64,000 bases of DNA from Haloarcula vallismortis ATCC 29715 (lineage in GTDB: Archaea > Halobacteriota > Halobacteria > Halobacteriales > Haloarculaceae), in the NCBI RefSeq assembly GCF_000337775.1, contig NZ_AOLQ01000004.1, forward strand, positions 1-64,000. Reading direction: 5' to 3'. The position numbers and the translations under genes were made by a program. The notes below the pieces were generated by a model, which was not told the origin of the DNA, did no database searches, and saw only the letters and a program-made list of their open reading frames with translations. The stretch's first letter is position 1. Each line of letters starts with the position of its first letter. Below, piece after piece: positions 2 to 8,449 of the stretch.

Positions 2-778
2 TCCGAGACAAGCCAGCCGCGAACCGAGCAGGCGCTCGCTGTCGTTCAACGAGAAATCGACTGTGTCAAGGCAGAACTGACGGCGTTCAGGCGCTTCCGG
101 ACCCAGCTTGTATCTATCGAGCCGACGGCACAATCCACAGGCTCTGTCGACACATCTGCGGGAGGGATGTCGACACTCAGCGCCCGCCAGCCGAAACTCG
201 ATACGAGCCTGCGTGCCGTTCGGGAGGCCTACCGAGAGACGGTCATGGCCGTGCCGCATTTCGAAGCCGAGTACGACGACTCGCTGGAAGCGAACATGTC
301 GATGGAGTTCGGCCCGGAACTCGGCACCCAGATCGCCACGGGAACGCGCCTGACTCCACAACTGTACGAGGCTCTGCTAACCGCAAGTAAGGGAGCACGT
401 GACGAGCGCGAGACGCTGCTCCCGGCGCTCGAACGCGAGCAGGAGTCGTTACAGTCAGTGCGAGCAACGCTTGACGACTGTGAACGCCGCGGGGCCGCAC
501 TCGGTGCGAACGCACGCCGAACGACTGACCCAGCCCGACTCGACAGTATCGACGAGCGACTCGCAGAGATCGAAGCCGAGTGCGAGGCGGTGGCAGCGAC
601 CCGCCAGCAACGGCTTCACAGCCGATCGACCGCTGCTCTTTCCGGTATTGACGGGACTAGCCTTGTCCGGTATCTCTACGACGACTGCCCGGTGACGTGT
701 CCGGCACTCGCTGACACCGTCGCGTGCCTCGATACGATCAGGCGGCATCGTCGTCACTGCATCGTTTCGACAAGCTAA
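2..778 (+). CDS. Haloarchaeal coiled-coil protein, 5' truncated by window edge (DUF7260-like)
   Basis: The reading frame is open from base 2 to the stop at 776-778, with no stop upstream, so the gene begins outside the window. The first internal ATG (167) is probably not the real start, because the 55 codons before it have the same acidic, charged composition as the rest. The visible 258 residues are mostly helical and charged, with Glu/Arg-rich heptad-like stretches (EREQESLQSV, DERLAEIEAE), and have no membrane segment in the visible part. The C-terminus has a CP-x-tC pattern (DDCPVTCPAL). This resembles a family of haloarchaea-specific coiled-coil proteins of unknown role (the DUF7260 name is from memory). 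No function is assigned. It is convergent with the AbrB-PhoU gene ending at 819. Confidence 0.75.
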   Translation, partial: SETSQPRTEQALAVVQREIDCVKAELTAFRRFRTQLVSIEPTAQSTGSVDTSAGGMSTLSARQPKLDTSLRAVREAYRETVMAVPHFEAEYDDSLEANMSMEFGPELGTQIATGTRLTPQLYEALLTASKGARDERETLLPALEREQESLQSVRATLDDCERRGAALGANARRTTDPARLDSIDERLAEIEAECEAVAATRQQRLHSRSTAALSGIDGTSLVRYLYDDCPVTCPALADTVACLDTIRRHRRHCIVSTS

Positions 779-818: not shown

Positions 819-1823
819 TCAGGACTGTGGCCGCGGCGCGGCCTTCTGGAGGGCGCTCTCGGCGATGTTGCCGCCGTAGTCGGCGGTCCGGGACAGGGAG
901 TCGACGATGAGGCCCAGTACCTGTGCGCTCTGGGGGTCGAACTCGCGGATCTGGCCGTCGACTTCGCGAGCAGTCTCGTCGACGTCAGGGATCTGGCTCC
1001 GGGCCTCGTTTGCCAGTTTGACGGCCTCCTCGGAGTCTTCGGTCAGCAGGGCATCCATCGCGGTTTCGGGGACGGCGATAGCCTCGGCTTCCAGCTGGTC
1101 GAGGAGGTCGGCGGTTTCGCCAGTTATCCCTCCGATTTCCTGAGAGAGGCTGGCGATCTTGGTCGCGTGGTCGGCGATACGCTCTAGCTGGCGGGCGCTG
1201 GACTGGAAATCGAACACTGTCTCACGTGGGAAGCCAATCTCGTTGGCAGCCGTCGGATTGCGGAGGACGGTTCGGAACACGCGTGAAACCATGTACCAGA
1301 GCCGGTCCACGTCGTCGTCGCGCTGCATCACGTCTGCCGCGAGGTCGTCGTCGTCCTCGATGAGCGCCTCGACAGCATCGGAGAGCATAGTCAGCGAGAC
1401 CAACCGCATTCGTGTGATTGCGTTGTGGACCGACAGCTCCGACGAATCAAGCAGGTCCTGCAGCACAACCCGGTCGGTCGTTTCCTCGATCATCTCGAGG
1501 CCGACCAGCCCCTGTGTCGCATCGCGGATAATGCGCCGTTGTTCGGCCGTGATCCGGGCCGCTTCGAGTTGGATGATGTCGAAGCCGCTGACGTACATCG
1601 TCATTACCGCCCGCGTGAGCTCGTGCCTGTTTTCGAGTCCCTCTACGTCGAGACTCCCCTCTACGCGGCCGTTATCCCGCTGCGGAGCGAGCAACAGCAG
1701 GTCCCGTTCAGCGTGGAATTCGACGACGCTGCCAGCGCTCACGTCGTTTTCTGTCGCCCACTCTTTGGGTAGTGAGACAGTGTATGTCGACCCGCCCGTC
1801 ACCTGGACCTTGCGTGTCTCCAT
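819..1823 (-). CDS. AbrB-PhoU phosphate uptake regulator (divergent from pst operon)
   Basis: This 334-aa protein has an N-terminal SpoVT/AbrB-type DNA-binding fold (residues 1-50: METRKVQVTGGSTYTVSLPK) followed by a PhoU-like helical domain with the RxxxxADHATKIA segment and a second helical bundle to the C-terminus (SLSRTADYGGNIAESAL). PhoU proteins couple the Pst transporter to phosphate signalling; in archaea the AbrB fusion suggests direct DNA binding, which is inference here. It is transcribed away from pstS across a repeat-rich intergenic region, and a close paralogue lies at the end of the pst operon (7388-8449). A TATA-like stretch (1849-1857) lies 26-34 bp before the ATG, consistent with a leaderless transcript. 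Confidence 0.9.
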   Translation of the reverse strand: METRKVQVTGGSTYTVSLPKEWATENDVSAGSVVEFHAERDLLLLAPQRDNGRVEGSLDVEGLENRHELTRAVMTMYVSGFDIIQLEAARITAEQRRIIRDATQGLVGLEMIEETTDRVVLQDLLDSSELSVHNAITRMRLVSLTMLSDAVEALIEDDDDLAADVMQRDDDVDRLWYMVSRVFRTVLRNPTAANEIGFPRETVFDFQSSARQLERIADHATKIASLSQEIGGITGETADLLDQLEAEAIAVPETAMDALLTEDSEEAVKLANEARSQIPDVDETAREVDGQIREFDPQSAQVLGLIVDSLSRTADYGGNIAESALQKAAPRPQS

Positions 1824-2151
1824 GTGACTGGCACTCGTTCACGGGATGATATAAATCCATTCATATCTATATACTGTATCGGAGGCCACATACTTGAGGA
1901 TATATTCTCCGGATAGACGCGGATTATTCGACGATATTCGCCGGTATAGGTGATTCAAACGGCTGAAAAAGATATACCCGGATGCTCATTGGAATACGTC
2001 GTATTCGGGGTTCTAGAGGAGTGATAGTGGCGTATTCGCTAATACATGTCTTCCAGTTTGTGGGTGCTTGTCATACCATATCTATATAGTAATACCCGCA
2101 TAGATATAGCTATCTTAGCAGGTTACTTATTACCTGTCCCGCTGGACTCTG
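1824..2151. promoter_or_regulatory. Divergent regulatory region between AbrB-PhoU and pstS
   Basis: This 328-bp gap is AT-rich and contains no convincing gene. The 11-mer ATATCTATATA occurs at 1863-1873 and 2078-2088. TATTC occurs at 1903, 1925, 1935, 2002 and 2033. Two inverted repeats are perfect: GAATAC-GTC-GTATTC (1992-2006) and GTATT-CGCT-AATAC (2032-2045). The likely pstS TATA element is TTACTTA at 2123-2129, about 26 bp before the ATG at 2152; the leftward one is at 1849-1857. These are candidate binding sites for phosphate-responsive regulators, with the AbrB domains encoded on either side as the obvious candidates. The binding role is inference. Confidence 0.65.
2078..2107. promoter_or_regulatory. 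Inverted repeat ATATCTAT-N14-ATAGATAT upstream of pstS TATA box
   Basis: Perfect 8-bp arms lie at 2078-2085 and 2100-2107, about 16-45 bp before the pstS TATA-like element. The same octamer ATAGATAT lies just upstream of the TATA box of the leftward AbrB-PhoU gene (1863-1870 on the minus strand), in the same orientation relative to each gene. Phosphate-dependent promoter elements are known in haloarchaea, but I could not compare this sequence with them. Confidence 0.5.
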
Positions 2152-3243
2152 ATGATGGCGCACGACTCAAACGGGCTGTCAGACCGCGTATCGCGGCGGA
2201 AATTCATCGCAACGACAGGTGCGACCGGCATTGCTGCAATCGCCGGGTGTAGCGAGGGCGGTAGCAGTGGCGGCAGTGATGGAGAAAGCGGCGACGGAAG
2301 CAGCGGTGACGGCGGCAGCACCGACGGTGGAAGCACCGAGGAAGAATCCACTGAAACAGCGACAGAGCAGAGCCTTTCCGGGGAAATCAACATCACAGGT
2401 TCCTCGACGGTATTCCCGCTCGCGACCGCTGTCGCAGAGGAATTCCAGAAGATGCACAGCGGCGTGGATATTAGCGTCCAGTCGACCGGTTCTGGTGGTG
2501 GATTCGAGAACTTCTTTTGCCCCGGCGAGTCTGACATCAACAACGCTTCGCGTCCCATCAAGGACAGCGAAACGCAAAACTGCAACAGCAACAATGTCAA
2601 CCCACATGAAATTAAGGTTGCTACGGACGCCCTAACCGTCATCATCAACAACGAGAACGATTGGGCGACCGAGATGACTGTCGACGAGCTTGCCCAGATT
2701 TGGGGTCCCGAAGCAGGCTCCGGCCAGACCTGGGCTGACATCAACTCCGACTGGCCTGACGAGGAAATCGAACGCTTTGGCGCCGCCGAGACGTCCGGTA
2801 CCTTCGACTACTTCACCGAGGTTATCAACGGTGAGGAAGGCGCCCACACGCAGGACTATGAGCCGACTGAACAGGACCGCACTATCGTTCAGGGCGTGAC
2901 CGGGAGCCAGTACGCTATCGGATACCTCGGCTTCGCATACTACTCTCAGAACCCCGACCAGGTGACGGCAGTCGCTGTCGATAACGGCAACGGTCCGGTC
3001 AAACCGACGCTCGAAACGGCTAAATCTGGCGAGTACGCACCCCTCTCCCGACCGCTGTTCACCTATCCTGCGATGAGTGCGCTTTCGGAGCAACACATTG
3101 CCGAATTCTGTCGGTACTTCGTCGAACAGAGTGCCAATACGGAACTCGTCGCCAATCAGGTCGGATATGTTCCGAACAGCCAGGAGGAGATGCAGACGGA
3201 ACTTGACGAGCTTAACTCCGCCATCGAAGAGGCGAACTCGTAA
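2152..3243 (+). CDS. pstS: Phosphate ABC transporter substrate-binding lipoprotein PstS
   Basis: PstS captures phosphate outside the membrane and delivers it to PstCA. The 363-aa product has a twin-arginine signal (R15-R16, SRRKFIATTG) ending in a lipobox with Cys33 (IAAIAGC), so it is a Tat-exported, lipid-anchored protein. A Ser/Gly/Glu/Asp-rich spacer (about 34-75) precedes the mature domain. The phosphate-binding TGSSTV loop is at 82-87, and SRPIKDSE and SGTFDYF match the PstS family. ATG is doubled (2152 and 2155) and the first is chosen. It is the first gene of pstSCAB-phoU, with a 40-bp gap to pstC. Confidence 0.96.
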   Translation: MMAHDSNGLSDRVSRRKFIATTGATGIAAIAGCSEGGSSGGSDGESGDGSSGDGGSTDGGSTEEESTETATEQSLSGEINITGSSTVFPLATAVAEEFQKMHSGVDISVQSTGSGGGFENFFCPGESDINNASRPIKDSETQNCNSNNVNPHEIKVATDALTVIINNENDWATEMTVDELAQIWGPEAGSGQTWADINSDWPDEEIERFGAAETSGTFDYFTEVINGEEGAHTQDYEPTEQDRTIVQGVTGSQYAIGYLGFAYYSQNPDQVTAVAVDNGNGPVKPTLETAKSGEYAPLSRPLFTYPAMSALSEQHIAEFCRYFVEQSANTELVANQVGYVPNSQEEMQTELDELNSAIEEANS

Positions 3244-3283
3244 CCTTCCCGGATTCTGTTTTTATACGCCACACAGACAATAC

Positions 3284-4222
3284 ATGTCAAATACAATCGA
3301 TTTGTCCGGGGACCGAGGGTCACAAGACCTCCGTGAAGGGATCTATGGAGTCGTCTTTTTCGTCTGTGCGGCGATCTCGGTCCTCACGACGATAGGTATT
3401 ATTCTCGCGTTGGTCCTCCCGACGCTCACGTTCCTCGGTGAGGTTCCGATACGGGAGTTCCTGCTCGGGACGCAGTTCAGTCCAGCTATCCAGCCGACCG
3501 TTTTCGGCGTTCTTCCACTCGTGTTCGGAACGTTACTCATCACGGTCGGTGCGGCGGCGGTCGCTCTCCCTGTCGGTCTTCTCACCGCGACCTATCTGAG
3601 TGAGTACGCGAGCCACCGACGGCGTGCCGTACTCAAGCCGCTGCTGGAAATCCTCGCTGGCGTTCCGACGGTCGTCTACGGGTACTTCGCGCTCGTGTAC
3701 GTGACACCGCTGTTGGACGCAATCCCGGGACTGGAACTGGGAACGTTCAACGCCCTCTCGGCTTCGCTCGTGATGGGTATCATGATTATCCCGATGGTCT
3801 CCTCGATAAGTGAGGATAGTATGAGTGCTGTCCCCGAATCGATACGGAACGCCGCGTACGGGCTTGGTGCGACGAAATACCGGGTGTCGACAAGCGTCGT
3901 CATTCCGTCAGCGGTGTCGGGTATCGCGTCGTCGTATATTCTGGCGCTCTCGCGGGCCATCGGCGAGACAATGATTGTGGTGGTTGCAGCGGGCCAGTCG
4001 GCCCGGTTCCCCGACAGCATCTCGGGACTGCTGAACAGTTTCTTCCAGTCGACACAGACGATGACCTCGGCTATTGTACAGTTGGGAACTAGCGACCTCG
4101 CTGGCGGCACGACTGCCTACCGAGCGCTATTTGCTATCGGACTCACGCTGTTCGTGATGACGTTCGTGCTGAACGTCGTGAGTGACGTGATTACCATGCG
4201 ATACCAGGAGGACTACGAATAA
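3284..4222 (+). CDS. pstC: Phosphate ABC transporter permease PstC
   Basis: This is one of the two permease subunits of the Pst phosphate importer. The 312-aa protein starts MSNTIDLSG. The open frame extends further upstream but overlaps pstS, so the ATG at 3284 just after the pstS stop was chosen. There are about six hydrophobic segments, and the cytoplasmic EAA coupling loop is visible (ESIRNAAYGLGATKY). The stop TAA shares its last base with the pstA start (TAATG at 4220-4224), which suggests translational coupling. Confidence 0.94.
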   Translation: MSNTIDLSGDRGSQDLREGIYGVVFFVCAAISVLTTIGIILALVLPTLTFLGEVPIREFLLGTQFSPAIQPTVFGVLPLVFGTLLITVGAAAVALPVGLLTATYLSEYASHRRRAVLKPLLEILAGVPTVVYGYFALVYVTPLLDAIPGLELGTFNALSASLVMGIMIIPMVSSISEDSMSAVPESIRNAAYGLGATKYRVSTSVVIPSAVSGIASSYILALSRAIGETMIVVVAAGQSARFPDSISGLLNSFFQSTQTMTSAIVQLGTSDLAGGTTAYRALFAIGLTLFVMTFVLNVVSDVITMRYQEDYE

Positions 4223-5832
4223 TGGCGACACCAACATCGAGCGAAACCACGTTCGAGTCCGTTAGCCGGACGAAAGGGGCCGTTTTCGAGTACTTGACGC
4301 TGGGCGCGTCGCTGTTCGGACTGGTCGCGCTGGGCGTGTTATTGCTGTACGTCTTCTGGGACGCATTCGGACTTGCAACCGCCGAAATCGCGTGGTACGG
4401 CGCGCTGGTGATTTGTGTCGTCGCCCCGACGCTTGGCTTCGTCGCGTATGCCCGCCGGAACACCGTCGCCGGCGAAGTGGCGCTGGAACTGGTATCGACG
4501 GCTATGGGCGGTCTTCTCGCCGGTTTTGGTGTTATTGCCGTCATTGAGGTTATTGCGGGACCGGCAGTCTGGTTCGCCTACTTCCTGACCGTCGTCGCCC
4601 CGCTGGTCGGACTATTCCTTTACAACCGCGCCCGTCCCGAGGTTACCTGGGTTGGTCTGGCCATGCTTGGCGTGTTGATTGCCGGGCCGATCATCGGGAC
4701 GCTCACCCTCGATACGCTCACACAAATTGAGTCTCTCATCGGCGGGCCGTTCGTCTACCTGCTTTCGCTCGTACTCCCGGCCGCTGTGATAGCGCGGTAC
4801 GTTATCGATGACTATCTGGAACTCGGGAACGGCAACTTCGCGGCCGGGCTCGTTGTCGCTGTCGCGTTCTTCGCTGTCCCGCTCATCGACACGCTGCCGT
4901 TGGTCTCCCGGTCGGTCTGGCTGATATTCCTCTCGACGCTGGTTACCCCACTCGGTATCGTCGCCTGGAAGAACCTCGCGGCCCCCGAGAACCGCGTCGG
5001 CTTCGCTGGCCCCGGCATTTTCATCGGAGGTGTGGGTCTGCTCCTGATTGTGACCGATGCGCTCGGGCTGAGTGGCCCGACGCCGTGGTTCGACTGGCAG
5101 TACCTCACGTCGAACCCATCCCGGTTCGCCGACCAGGCCGGGTTGTATTCGGCGATTATCGGCTCTGTGTTCATCATCGTGCTGGTGGCACTCATCACGC
5201 TGGCGCTGGGCGTCGGTGCGGCGATCTTCCTTGAAGAATACGCCCCCGATAGCGGACCGGGGGCCGCGATTGCACGACTCATCCGTATCAACATCTCGAA
5301 TCTCGCCGGCGTTCCGTCGGTCGTGTACGGCATCCTCGGCCTGGCCGTCTTCGCGAACCTCGTCGGCCTCGGCTTCGGGACCGTCATCACTGCCGCGCTG
5401 ACGCTTTCGCTACTTATCCTCCCGATTGTCATCATCTCCGCCCGCGAGGCGATCCGTGCGGTCCCGGATTCGATCCGGAACGCCTCGTACGGTATGGGGG
5501 CGACCAAATGGCAGACGACGCGAAACATCGTGTTGCCGCGCGCGATTCCCGGCATTTTGACGGGGACGATTCTGGCGCTCGGCCGGGCTATCGGCGAGAC
5601 GGCCCCGTTAATCATGATCGGGGTTGCAACGACGAAGTTCAGCCCGCCCTCGGGCCTGTTCAGCAAGACGACGGCGATGCCGATGCAGATCTTCGCGTGG
5701 TCGTCGTACCCGTCGGCGGAGTTCCAGCATGGCGTCGTCGCGGCGGGTGTCGTGACGCTGCTCGTCGTTCTACTGACGATGAACTCTATCGCCATTCTAC
5801 TGCGAAACAAGTTCGAAACGGAGGAGCTATAA
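4222..5832 (+). CDS. pstA: Phosphate ABC transporter permease PstA, with long membrane N-terminal extension
   Basis: Second Pst permease subunit, 536 aa. Typical PstA is near 280-300 aa. Here roughly 230 N-terminal residues form about seven additional hydrophobic segments before the canonical permease domain, which carries the EAA loop ([15 protein letters not shown]) and the PstA-like AIFLEEYAP and [11 protein letters not shown] segments. The function of the extension is unknown; similar long forms occur in haloarchaea as far as I recall. It overlaps pstC and pstB by one base at each end, so the operon is tightly coupled. Confidence 0.93.
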
Positions 5833-6704
5833 TGGCAAACGAAAACCAATCCGCGACGGCACAGCAAAGCGACACTGACCAGCTCATCTCGACGGACCCC
5901 GGCGGTGGGGGGCTCTCGGAACAATCCGACAACCAAACAGTGGATTCTGAGACTGAGTCGGTAGTTCAATCCCAGAATCTGGATGTATACTACGGCGACA
6001 CGCAGGCGTTGCAGGATATCACGATAGAGATTCCCTCGAACCGCGTCACCGCGATGATTGGCCCGTCGGGCTGTGGGAAGTCGACGTTCCTCCGGTGTAT
6101 CAACCGGATGAACGACCTCGTCGACATCGCCCGCGTCGAGGGGGACCTGTACTTCCACGGCCAGAACGTCTACGACGACTACGTCGACCCCGTCGCGCTC
6201 CGGCGACGCATCGGGATGGTGTTCCAGCACCCCAACCCCTTCCCGAAGAGCATCTACGACAACGTCGCCTACGGCCTCCGAATCCAGGGTAACACCGAGA
6301 ACTTGGACGCAAAAGTCGAGCAGTCGCTGAAACGGGCCGCCCTGTGGGACGAAGTCAAGGACCGCCTGGATGACTCCGCGCTGGACCTCTCTGGCGGCCA
6401 GCAACAGCGGCTCTGCATTGCTCGCGCTATCGCCGTCGACCCCGAGGTCATCCTAATGGACGAGCCGGCCTCTGCGCTGGACCCCATCGCAACCTCACAG
6501 ATAGAGGACCTCATCGAGGAGCTGGCCGAGGAGTACACAGTCGTCATCGTCACGCACAACATGCAACAGGCCGCTCGCATCTCGGACCAGACCGCCGTGT
6601 TCCTCACCGGCGGCGAGTTGGTCGAGTTCGACGACACGGATAAAATATTCGAGAACCCCGAGAGCCAGCGCGTCGAAGACTACATCACCGGCAAGTTCGG
6701 GTAA
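5832..6704 (+). CDS. pstB: Phosphate ABC transporter ATPase PstB
   Basis: Energy-coupling ATPase of the Pst importer, 290 aa from the ATG at 5832, which overlaps the pstA stop. About 45 hydrophilic residues precede the ABC domain. Walker A is GPSGCGKST, the signature is LSGGQQQR, Walker B is VILMDEP, and the switch histidine is in [10 protein letters not shown]. The CINRMNDL and [14 protein letters not shown] segments are typical of PstB. The phoU start follows 4 bp after the stop. Confidence 0.97.
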
Positions 6705-6707
6705 CCC

Positions 6708-7385
6708 ATGTCACGCGAGTCGTACCAGCAACTGCTGGACGAACTCCGGGAGAACGTGGTCGAGATGGGCGACCTCGTCGTCGAGCGACTCGAGGCGGCA
6801 CTCACTGCCCTCCGGACCGTCGACCCGGAGATGGCGCAGTCCGTCATCGACGGTGACGAGGACATAAACGAGCTGTATCTGGCCCTGGAAGCCGACTGTA
6901 TCGACCTCTTTGCCCTCCAGCAGCCGGTCGCGACGGACCTCCGCTTTGTCGCCGCCTCGTTCAAGATCATCACCGACCTCGAACGCGTGGGCGACCTCGC
7001 GACGAACCTCGCGGCCTACGCACAGTCGGCCGACCGCCGACTGGCCCCCGAAGTCGATGTCGACACCATCGGCCGCGACGCTACCGAGATGGTCGAGCGC
7101 AGCATCGACGCGTACCGGCGGGAAGACGTCGAGGAGTGTCGCGCTATCGCGGCTGACGACGACGCGCTCGATGCGCTCTGTCAGCGGGCTAGCGAGACCG
7201 TCGCTCGGGACCTCATCGAACGGGAGGCCGACACCGACGACGGCTGGGCGGTCGAGCAACTTCTCGACGACGTGTCCCGGCTCCTGTTGACGGTTCGGGA
7301 CCTCGAACGGGTCGGTGACCACGCCGTCAACATCGCGGCGCGCACGCTGTATATGGTCGAAACTGATTCGGAACTCATCTACTAA
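6708..7385 (+). CDS. phoU: Phosphate signalling complex protein PhoU
   Basis: Stand-alone PhoU, 225 aa, built from two three-helix PhoU repeats. Metal-binding PhoU motifs are visible in each half: FKIITDLERVGDLATNLA and VRDLERVGDHAVNIAART. PhoU inhibits or tunes Pst transport when phosphate is plentiful and binds PstB; that is family knowledge. It lies 4 bp after pstB and 2 bp before the AbrB-PhoU gene, so all six genes probably form one operon. Confidence 0.95.
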   Translation: MSRESYQQLLDELRENVVEMGDLVVERLEAALTALRTVDPEMAQSVIDGDEDINELYLALEADCIDLFALQQPVATDLRFVAASFKIITDLERVGDLATNLAAYAQSADRRLAPEVDVDTIGRDATEMVERSIDAYRREDVEECRAIAADDDALDALCQRASETVARDLIEREADTDDGWAVEQLLDDVSRLLLTVRDLERVGDHAVNIAARTLYMVETDSELIY

Positions 7386-7387
7386 GC

Positions 7388-8449
7388 ATGGAAACCCGAA
7401 AGATACAGACCGTCGGCGGCGGGACCTACACCGTTTCACTGCCGAAAGAGTGGGCCGAATCGGAGAACTGTACGGCCGGGACGACGGTGAACCTCCACAC
7501 GCACATCGACGGGCTTCTGGTGATTCAGACTCCCGAGTCACAGACAACGCCGCGGAACCGCTTCACACTCGAAGTCGGAAACGACGACCCGGCGGAAATC
7601 GAGCAGCTGTTGCGGGCGGCCTACGCCGCCGGCGTCGAGTCCGTCGTCCTCGAAGTCCCCGATGGCTACAGCGACGAGCAACACCGAGCCATCGAACGCG
7701 TTACCCGGAACCTGACCGGCGTCACCATCGCCGAGGAGACCGACTCAACAGTAACAGTCCAGACGTTGCTCGACGCTGGCGAGGTGTCCGTCAGTCAATC
7801 GGTCCGCCAGCTCCAGTTCGTCGCCCTGTCGATGCACCGGGATGCGATGGCCGCGCTGACGACTGAAACGACCAGCGACCGGTGGGCCGACCGGGACGAC
7901 CAGGCCGACCGGCTGTACGCCATGATCGACCGCTACTTCGAGCGCGGACTGGCCCGACTTGACGAGATAGACGCACTCGGGCTGACCCGCCCCGAACTGT
8001 TCACTCTCTGGGGGACTGCGAACGAACTCGAACGCGTGGCCGACCACGCCGAGCGTATCGGCACTGTCGCCGACCGGCTTGACGGCCAACCCGACGAGCG
8101 CATTATCACAGCCCTCGACGACATTGCACAGGATGTCCATGCCGTCGTCGAGGACGCCGTCCGAATGATCATTGGCGACGCCTGTGTCGACACCGCTCGA
8201 CAGGCACTGGCCACGCGCCGGGATGTTCGAGAGCGGATAACCAGTCTCGACCGACAGCTGTTCGAGTCCGGTGACGCCGACTATCGGCTCACGCGCGCCC
8301 TCGATAGCCTCGCCAGAACGGCGGAACACGGCGGCAATATCGCCGAATTTGGGCTTCGGATGGCCGTCCGCGACGGCGCGCTCGCCGACGTCAGCACCGG
8401 CACCGACGACGCGGATACAGCGGGATCGGCGGCTGAGACGGAGTCATAA
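7388..8449 (+). CDS. AbrB-PhoU phosphate uptake regulator (last gene of pst operon)
   Basis: This 353-aa paralogue of the protein encoded at 819-1823 starts METRKIQTVGGGTYTVSLPK (AbrB-like, 1-50). PhoU-like helices follow (ELERVADHAERIGTVADRL and SLARTAEHGGNIAEFGL). The N-terminal 25 residues are nearly the same in both copies, while the wing after residue 30 differs (VNLHTHIDGLL versus VEFHAERDLLL), which could alter DNA preference. Its position 2 bp after phoU suggests co-transcription with the transporter and hence feedback control (inference). Confidence 0.9.
   Translation: METRKIQTVGGGTYTVSLPKEWAESENCTAGTTVNLHTHIDGLLVIQTPESQTTPRNRFTLEVGNDDPAEIEQLLRAAYAAGVESVVLEVPDGYSDEQHRAIERVTRNLTGVTIAEETDSTVTVQTLLDAGEVSVSQSVRQLQFVALSMHRDAMAALTTETTSDRWADRDDQADRLYAMIDRYFERGLARLDEIDALGLTRPELFTLWGTANELERVADHAERIGTVADRLDGQPDERIITALDDIAQDVHAVVEDAVRMIIGDACVDTARQALATRRDVRERITSLDRQLFESGDADYRLTRALDSLARTAEHGGNIAEFGLRMAVRDGALADVSTGTDDADTAGSAAETES

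Follow-up and report, generated by a model that had tools for sequence, protein, structure and literature searches.

The window, that is, the whole 64,000-nucleotide stretch analyzed here, forms the beginning of contig C4 of a Haloarcula-type genome of 3.92 Mb. Close to its start, a gap at 1824-2151 separates a gene for an AbrB-PhoU fusion protein (819-1823, minus strand) from a pst operon on the plus strand (2152-8449), in which pstS, pstC, pstA, pstB, phoU, and a second AbrB-PhoU gene follow one another. Below, phoU without further qualification denotes the AbrB-PhoU gene at 819-1823. The features on which the argument draws are as follows:

2-778, plus strand: DUF7260 gene (Pfam DUF7260), convergent with phoU; its promoter lies on contig C7, outside the window
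819-1823, minus strand: AbrB-PhoU gene (334 aa), encoding the candidate box reader; Pfam MazE_antitoxin/AbrB fold at residues 7-51 and PhoU at 136-225; divergent from pstS
1849-1856, minus strand: TATA box of the phoU promoter, TTTATAT (81-locus logo; 99% conserved in Haloarcula)
1867-1873, minus strand: phosphate box of phoU, TATATAG, 11 nt upstream of TTTAT (alignment, logo, genome pattern search)
2082-2089, plus strand: phosphate box of pstS, the palindrome CTATATAG, 34 nt upstream of TACTTA (upstream-region survey, genome survey)
2104-2109, plus strand: partial second copy, ATATAG, 14 nt upstream of TACTTA (94% conserved in Haloarcula)
2116-2129, plus strand: pstS promoter core TAGYAGNNTAYTTA (here TAGCAGGTTACTTA), TATA box included, near-invariant across loci
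2152-3243, plus strand: pstS, Tat-type lipoprotein phosphate-binding protein (Pfam PBP_like_2)
3284-6704, plus strand: pstC, pstA, and pstB transporter genes (Pfam BPD_transp_1 twice, ABC_tran)
6708-7385, plus strand: stand-alone phoU gene (Pfam PhoU, two stretches)
7388-8449, plus strand: second AbrB-PhoU gene (translation; N-terminal likeness to the first)

Alignment placed the pstS start codon common to relatives at the ATG at 2155, and a paralogous phoU/pstS pair is present on contig C67 of the same genome. Homology to the Haloarcula relatives (L006-L011) ended within the stretch encoding the pstS signal peptide/lipobox; five of the six alignments stop at 2250, and that of L007 stops at 2141. 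Identity between the mature PstS proteins is only about 26-30%, compared with 92-99% for PhoU, which suggests, on sequence comparison, that the pst operon from 2250 onward (pstS to at least pstB) was replaced by recombination.

Conserved and non-conserved elements of the gap

The first-pass annotation had described the gap as a repeat-dense control region. Its 11-bp direct repeat at 1863 and 2078 is indeed present and extends to 12 bp (CATATCTATATA, at 1862 and 2077), a length modestly improbable by chance (p = 0.017, 1000 Markov shuffles of the gap). The octamer ATAGATAT occurs three times in the 64 kb, always within the gap, at 1863 (minus), 2078 (minus), and 2100 (plus). As had been proposed, the copies at 1863 and 2100 each lie upstream of a TATA box in matching orientation, but the conservation of the pstS-side copy (2100-2107) resides mainly in its 3' part (ATATAG, 2104-2109). 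Against a mean gap identity of 0.71 with six Haloarcula relatives, CTATATA at 1867-1873 was 100% conserved, CTATATAG at 2082-2089 approximately 96%, ATCTTAGCAG at 2112-2121 97%, and both TATA boxes 95-99%.

The remaining elements did not share in this conservation. All five TATTC elements (1903, 1925, 1935, 2002, and 2033) exist and exceed their frequency in shuffled gaps (p = 0.004, in a post hoc comparison), but the three measured (0.63-0.87 identity) were close to the gap background, and we rejected TATTC as a control site. Likewise, the letters of the three reported inverted repeats are there, although chance alone readily gives perfect arms of 6 nt (p = 0.26, shuffles); those at 1992-2006 and 2032-2045 showed identities of 0.59 and 0.57, were intact in none of the six aligned relatives, and were also discarded as control sites.

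The box at phoU and pstS promoters across Halobacteria

Across 81 haloarchaeal loci, the phoU-side logo reads T[AC]TATAGA-N10-TTTAT. TATATAG was found in 56 of these loci and the shorter TATAG in 70, the latter being absent from 11 phoU promoters, and the spaced pattern TATAG-N11-TTWW occurred in 60 of the 81 (0.42 expected). The start codon mostly follows 38-44 nt past the box, and in the window the TATA box lies about 28 nt from the ATG; both distances are consistent with leaderless transcription of phoU. Many loci without an adjacent pstS still keep the box before phoU, which fits autoregulation. In the 3.9-Mb genome, TATATAGN{10,12}TTWAT matched only three times, each time in one of the two phoU/pstS gaps.

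On the pstS side, TATATAG was present in 45 of 46 pstS-type upstream regions (5.6 expected), followed by a near-invariant core, CATAGYAGNNTAYTTA, that adjoins and includes the TATA box. The pst promoter therefore shows the mark of a haloarchaeal pho-box pst promoter, a cis element conserved ahead of the TATA box. The core form TAGYAGNNTAYTTA matched the genome exactly just twice, each time at a pstS promoter. The composite TATATAGN{5,34}TAGYAGNNTAYTTA was recovered, usually once per genome, from 80 of 145 Halobacteria genomes (36 of 58 genera) with no matches for the control patterns, and automatic reading placed a PstS-like lipoprotein downstream of 46 of the 49 sites read. Weighing against the box model, the strict composite was absent from 65 of the 145 genomes, although the regulator is present in almost all. 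The earlier reading of the gap as a phosphate-linked divergent control region is nonetheless well supported, as the box precedes phoU and pstS class-wide in a geometry found almost nowhere else. Judged by its sequence conservation, the gap at 1824-2151 is a real, conserved, phosphate-linked divergent promoter region. The main idea of the first-pass annotation is borne out in part, whereas most of the elements that it listed are not.

The distance between TATATAG and TAGYAG was 6 nt in 29 genera, 15-16 nt in five, and 24-26 nt in about five, with the proviso that one genus may count in more than one class. In most other genera, the main box sits where the window has its partial copy (2104-2109). 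Spacers other than 6 were in phase with 6 (p = 3e-4 at a 10-bp period, 0.016 at 10.5 bp), an out-of-phase spacer of 10 being confined to one genome that also has one of 25. Because the test was devised post hoc and genera are not fully independent, this phasing is suggestive rather than final. The pstS spacers of about 6, 15-16, and 24-26 nt would correspond to roughly whole helical turns, as expected if the bound proteins touch on one face of the DNA.

AbrB-PhoU as the candidate reader

The first-pass annotation had named AbrB-PhoU as the obvious candidate for the binding protein. Our comparisons leave it as the best candidate, because 144 of 145 genomes encode an ortholog, the box persists at its own promoter at loci where pstS does not adjoin it, and its N-terminal DNA-binding segment is nearly invariant; binding as such is a prediction from these sequence patterns. 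Residues 131-334 have the PhoU-family fold of two three-helix bundles, as indicated by the Pfam PhoU match (7e-23) and by an AlphaFold model that matches solved PhoU structures (TM-score of 0.8, by target length, to 1xwm); the protein scores below the NCBIfam cut-off for full-length PhoU. The AbrB segment, a putative swapped-hairpin domain of the AbrB/MazE/SpoVT type, was recognized by Pfam as MazE_antitoxin (6e-11), but residues 1-50 were modeled, as a monomer, with low confidence. The second AbrB-PhoU (7388-8449) is identical to the first at 19 of residues 1-23, despite 35% identity overall, and may therefore read the same box.

Wider distribution of the box

The box is only 7-8 bp long and AT-rich, and bare TATATAG was rejected as a regulon finder, as its 73 genome sites lie mostly at unrelated genes, many of them not close to phosphate genes. 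A more specific pattern, ATATANNNNTCATATAAA with at most one mismatch, had three genome matches, one each at the gene leading the ppk1 operon, at a second GDPD gene, and at the end of contig C7. The ppk1 leader encodes a metallophosphatase (the ppk itself was confirmed by Pfam), and its closest Haloarcula orthologs carry CTATATAG or CTATATAC just before TCATATAAA or TAATATAAA, with related box forms in more distant orthologs. Contig C7, reversed, precedes the start of the window, judging by relatives, and carries the 5' end and promoter of the DUF7260 gene; the third match accordingly falls in the promoter of DUF7260, the gene that neighbors phoU. This promoter contains CTATATAGCGAACATATAAAATACCTA, and a box preceded DUF7260 in all 14 Haloarcula loci read, once as CTATATAT. 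The regulon draws support from the fact that DUF7260 was still unidentified as the third-match gene when the pattern was run. We predict that the box-defined regulon extends to the ppk1 operon and the DUF7260 gene in Haloarcula. The region had also been envisaged as a self-contained phosphate switch, and this part of the proposal is unsupported, because the box also precedes these two genes.

Other sites are less clear. A gdpD gene (C3:10477-11427) has TATATAG conserved in nine close Haloarcula orthologs, but at so short a distance from the start codon that this sequence may simply be the TATA box, and the second gdpD gene (C4:212592), with the variant box CATATATCCC before TCATATAAA, is a weak case. 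TATATAG was also observed on both strands at C3:8158-8172 of this genome (G000; L156:5559-5573), with a phosphonate-type ABC transporter cluster on one side and an MgtC-like gene on the other, and this phn-cluster site is a possible further member of the phosphate regulon. A separate element, TATATAGCGANATANNNTTTAT, with a 10-nt spacer, recurs in many Halobacteria genomes (L200-L226, e.g., near position 1500 in L218, L224, and L226) but does not precede phoU or pstS, and the sites checked matched neither an Rfam family nor a tRNA. A second class, of the TATATAGCGA type with a 10-nt spacer, was set aside, since where read it precedes neither phoU nor pstS; some of these sites seem to come after the 3' end of a gene.

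Proposed mechanism and alternatives

The explanation that we regard as probable, taken as a whole, is that of divergent box promoters read by AbrB-PhoU, which would act as an activator under phosphate limitation. The gap would hold two divergent, probably leaderless promoters, each carrying, ahead of its BRE/TATA region, a phosphate box, TATATAG (in its fullest form CTATATAG). The box is most likely read by the adjoining AbrB-PhoU, possibly together with its paralogue at 7388-8449; a dimer of the AbrB domain would bind the near-palindromic box, and the PhoU domain would signal which state the Pst transporter (PstB) is in. When phosphate is limiting, bound AbrB-PhoU could help to recruit TFB/TBP, and this recruitment would raise expression of pstSCAB-phoU and, as feedback, of phoU itself, together with the ppk1 operon and the DUF7260 gene in Haloarcula. 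We infer the identity of the binder, its activator role, and the route by which the transporter signal reaches it.

AbrB-PhoU might instead bind the box as a repressor that is released under phosphate starvation. We judge this unlikely, yet it is the strongest of the alternatives. Bacterial PhoU is a negative regulator and repressors commonly autoregulate, both of which would agree with repression, and the phoU-side box lies only 11 nt from its TATA box, near enough to hinder TFB. The pstS-side box, however, stands up to three turns from TATA and yet near phase, which fits activation better, and a Haloferax sRNA132 paper reports that the Pho boxes of Halobacterium salinarum are essential for up-regulation (PMC6560208).

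Improbable, and ranked behind repression, is that the phosphate box is real but is read by another transcription factor, with AbrB-PhoU merely a target and transporter co-regulator. The presence of the box at unlinked genes, and its retention before pstS at several loci where no phoU was found beside pstS, would be compatible with such a factor. Nevertheless, AbrB-PhoU is the only protein with a DNA-binding domain that is persistently tied to the box (144 of 145 genomes), and its promoter retains the box when pstS is not adjacent. It is very unlikely that the conserved letters are just an unusual core-promoter (BRE/TATA) sequence free of phosphate-specific regulation: the elements are AT-rich and adjoin TATA boxes, but their geometry hardly occurs anywhere else in the genome and goes with a single function in 36 genera, and the control patterns gave no match. 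That the TATTC elements and mid-gap inverted repeats are the operators is scarcely credible, the excess of TATTC over shuffles being set against a near-background conservation that largely contradicts this role.

Returning to activation by AbrB-PhoU, a broader proposal can be offered tentatively, as one that we find somewhat doubtful in its entirety: a class-wide, one-protein phosphate regulon in which the AbrB-PhoU fusion would read Pst directly, activate through the box at whole-turn distances, and control its own gene, pst, polyphosphate kinase, and DUF7260, without a histidine kinase or response regulator. The way in which archaea link the uptake of phosphate to transcription is poorly understood, and the present analysis contributes an exact element from which predictions follow base by base, names a candidate regulator, proposes a rule for the spacing, and adds predicted members (the ppk1 leader gene and DUF7260).

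Comparison with known systems

The kind of element is already known, because Pho boxes have been reported for H. salinarum pst promoters. According to the Haloferax sRNA132 paper, which cites Furtwaengler 2010 for their necessity in pst up-regulation, these pho boxes are PhoU binding motifs (PMC6560208). The P-boxes of H. salinarum pst1 and pst2 (Furtwaengler et al. 2010, as cited in PMC6560208) are likewise short cis elements of haloarchaeal pst promoters with a link to phosphate and a PhoU-type protein. Outside the H. salinarum P-box papers themselves, we found no published P-box letters in the literature, and the likeness drawn here is one of description. Relative to that system, sequence comparison adds here the letters and geometry of the element throughout the class, a box before the regulator gene phoU itself (from which autoregulation is inferred), the suggested spacing rule, and a wider Haloarcula regulon with the predicted ppk1 and DUF7260 extension.

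In Haloferax volcanii, PhoU2-PstS1 (HVO_2374/HVO_2375) likewise combines an N-terminal DNA-binding domain with PhoU beside pst1, and PhoU2 has been proposed as a transcriptional regulator of phosphate uptake; in the portion of that report available, the phenotype studied is hypochlorite tolerance, and a DNA element was not found described there (PMC6267482). The bacterial PhoR-PhoB/PhoU Pho regulon similarly joins a Pst transporter and PhoU to a box that precedes the promoters of phosphate genes. Unlike the bacterial regulon, the system proposed here would unite DNA-binding and PhoU domains in one protein and act on archaeal TATA/TFB promoters, with no PhoB-type regulator invoked.
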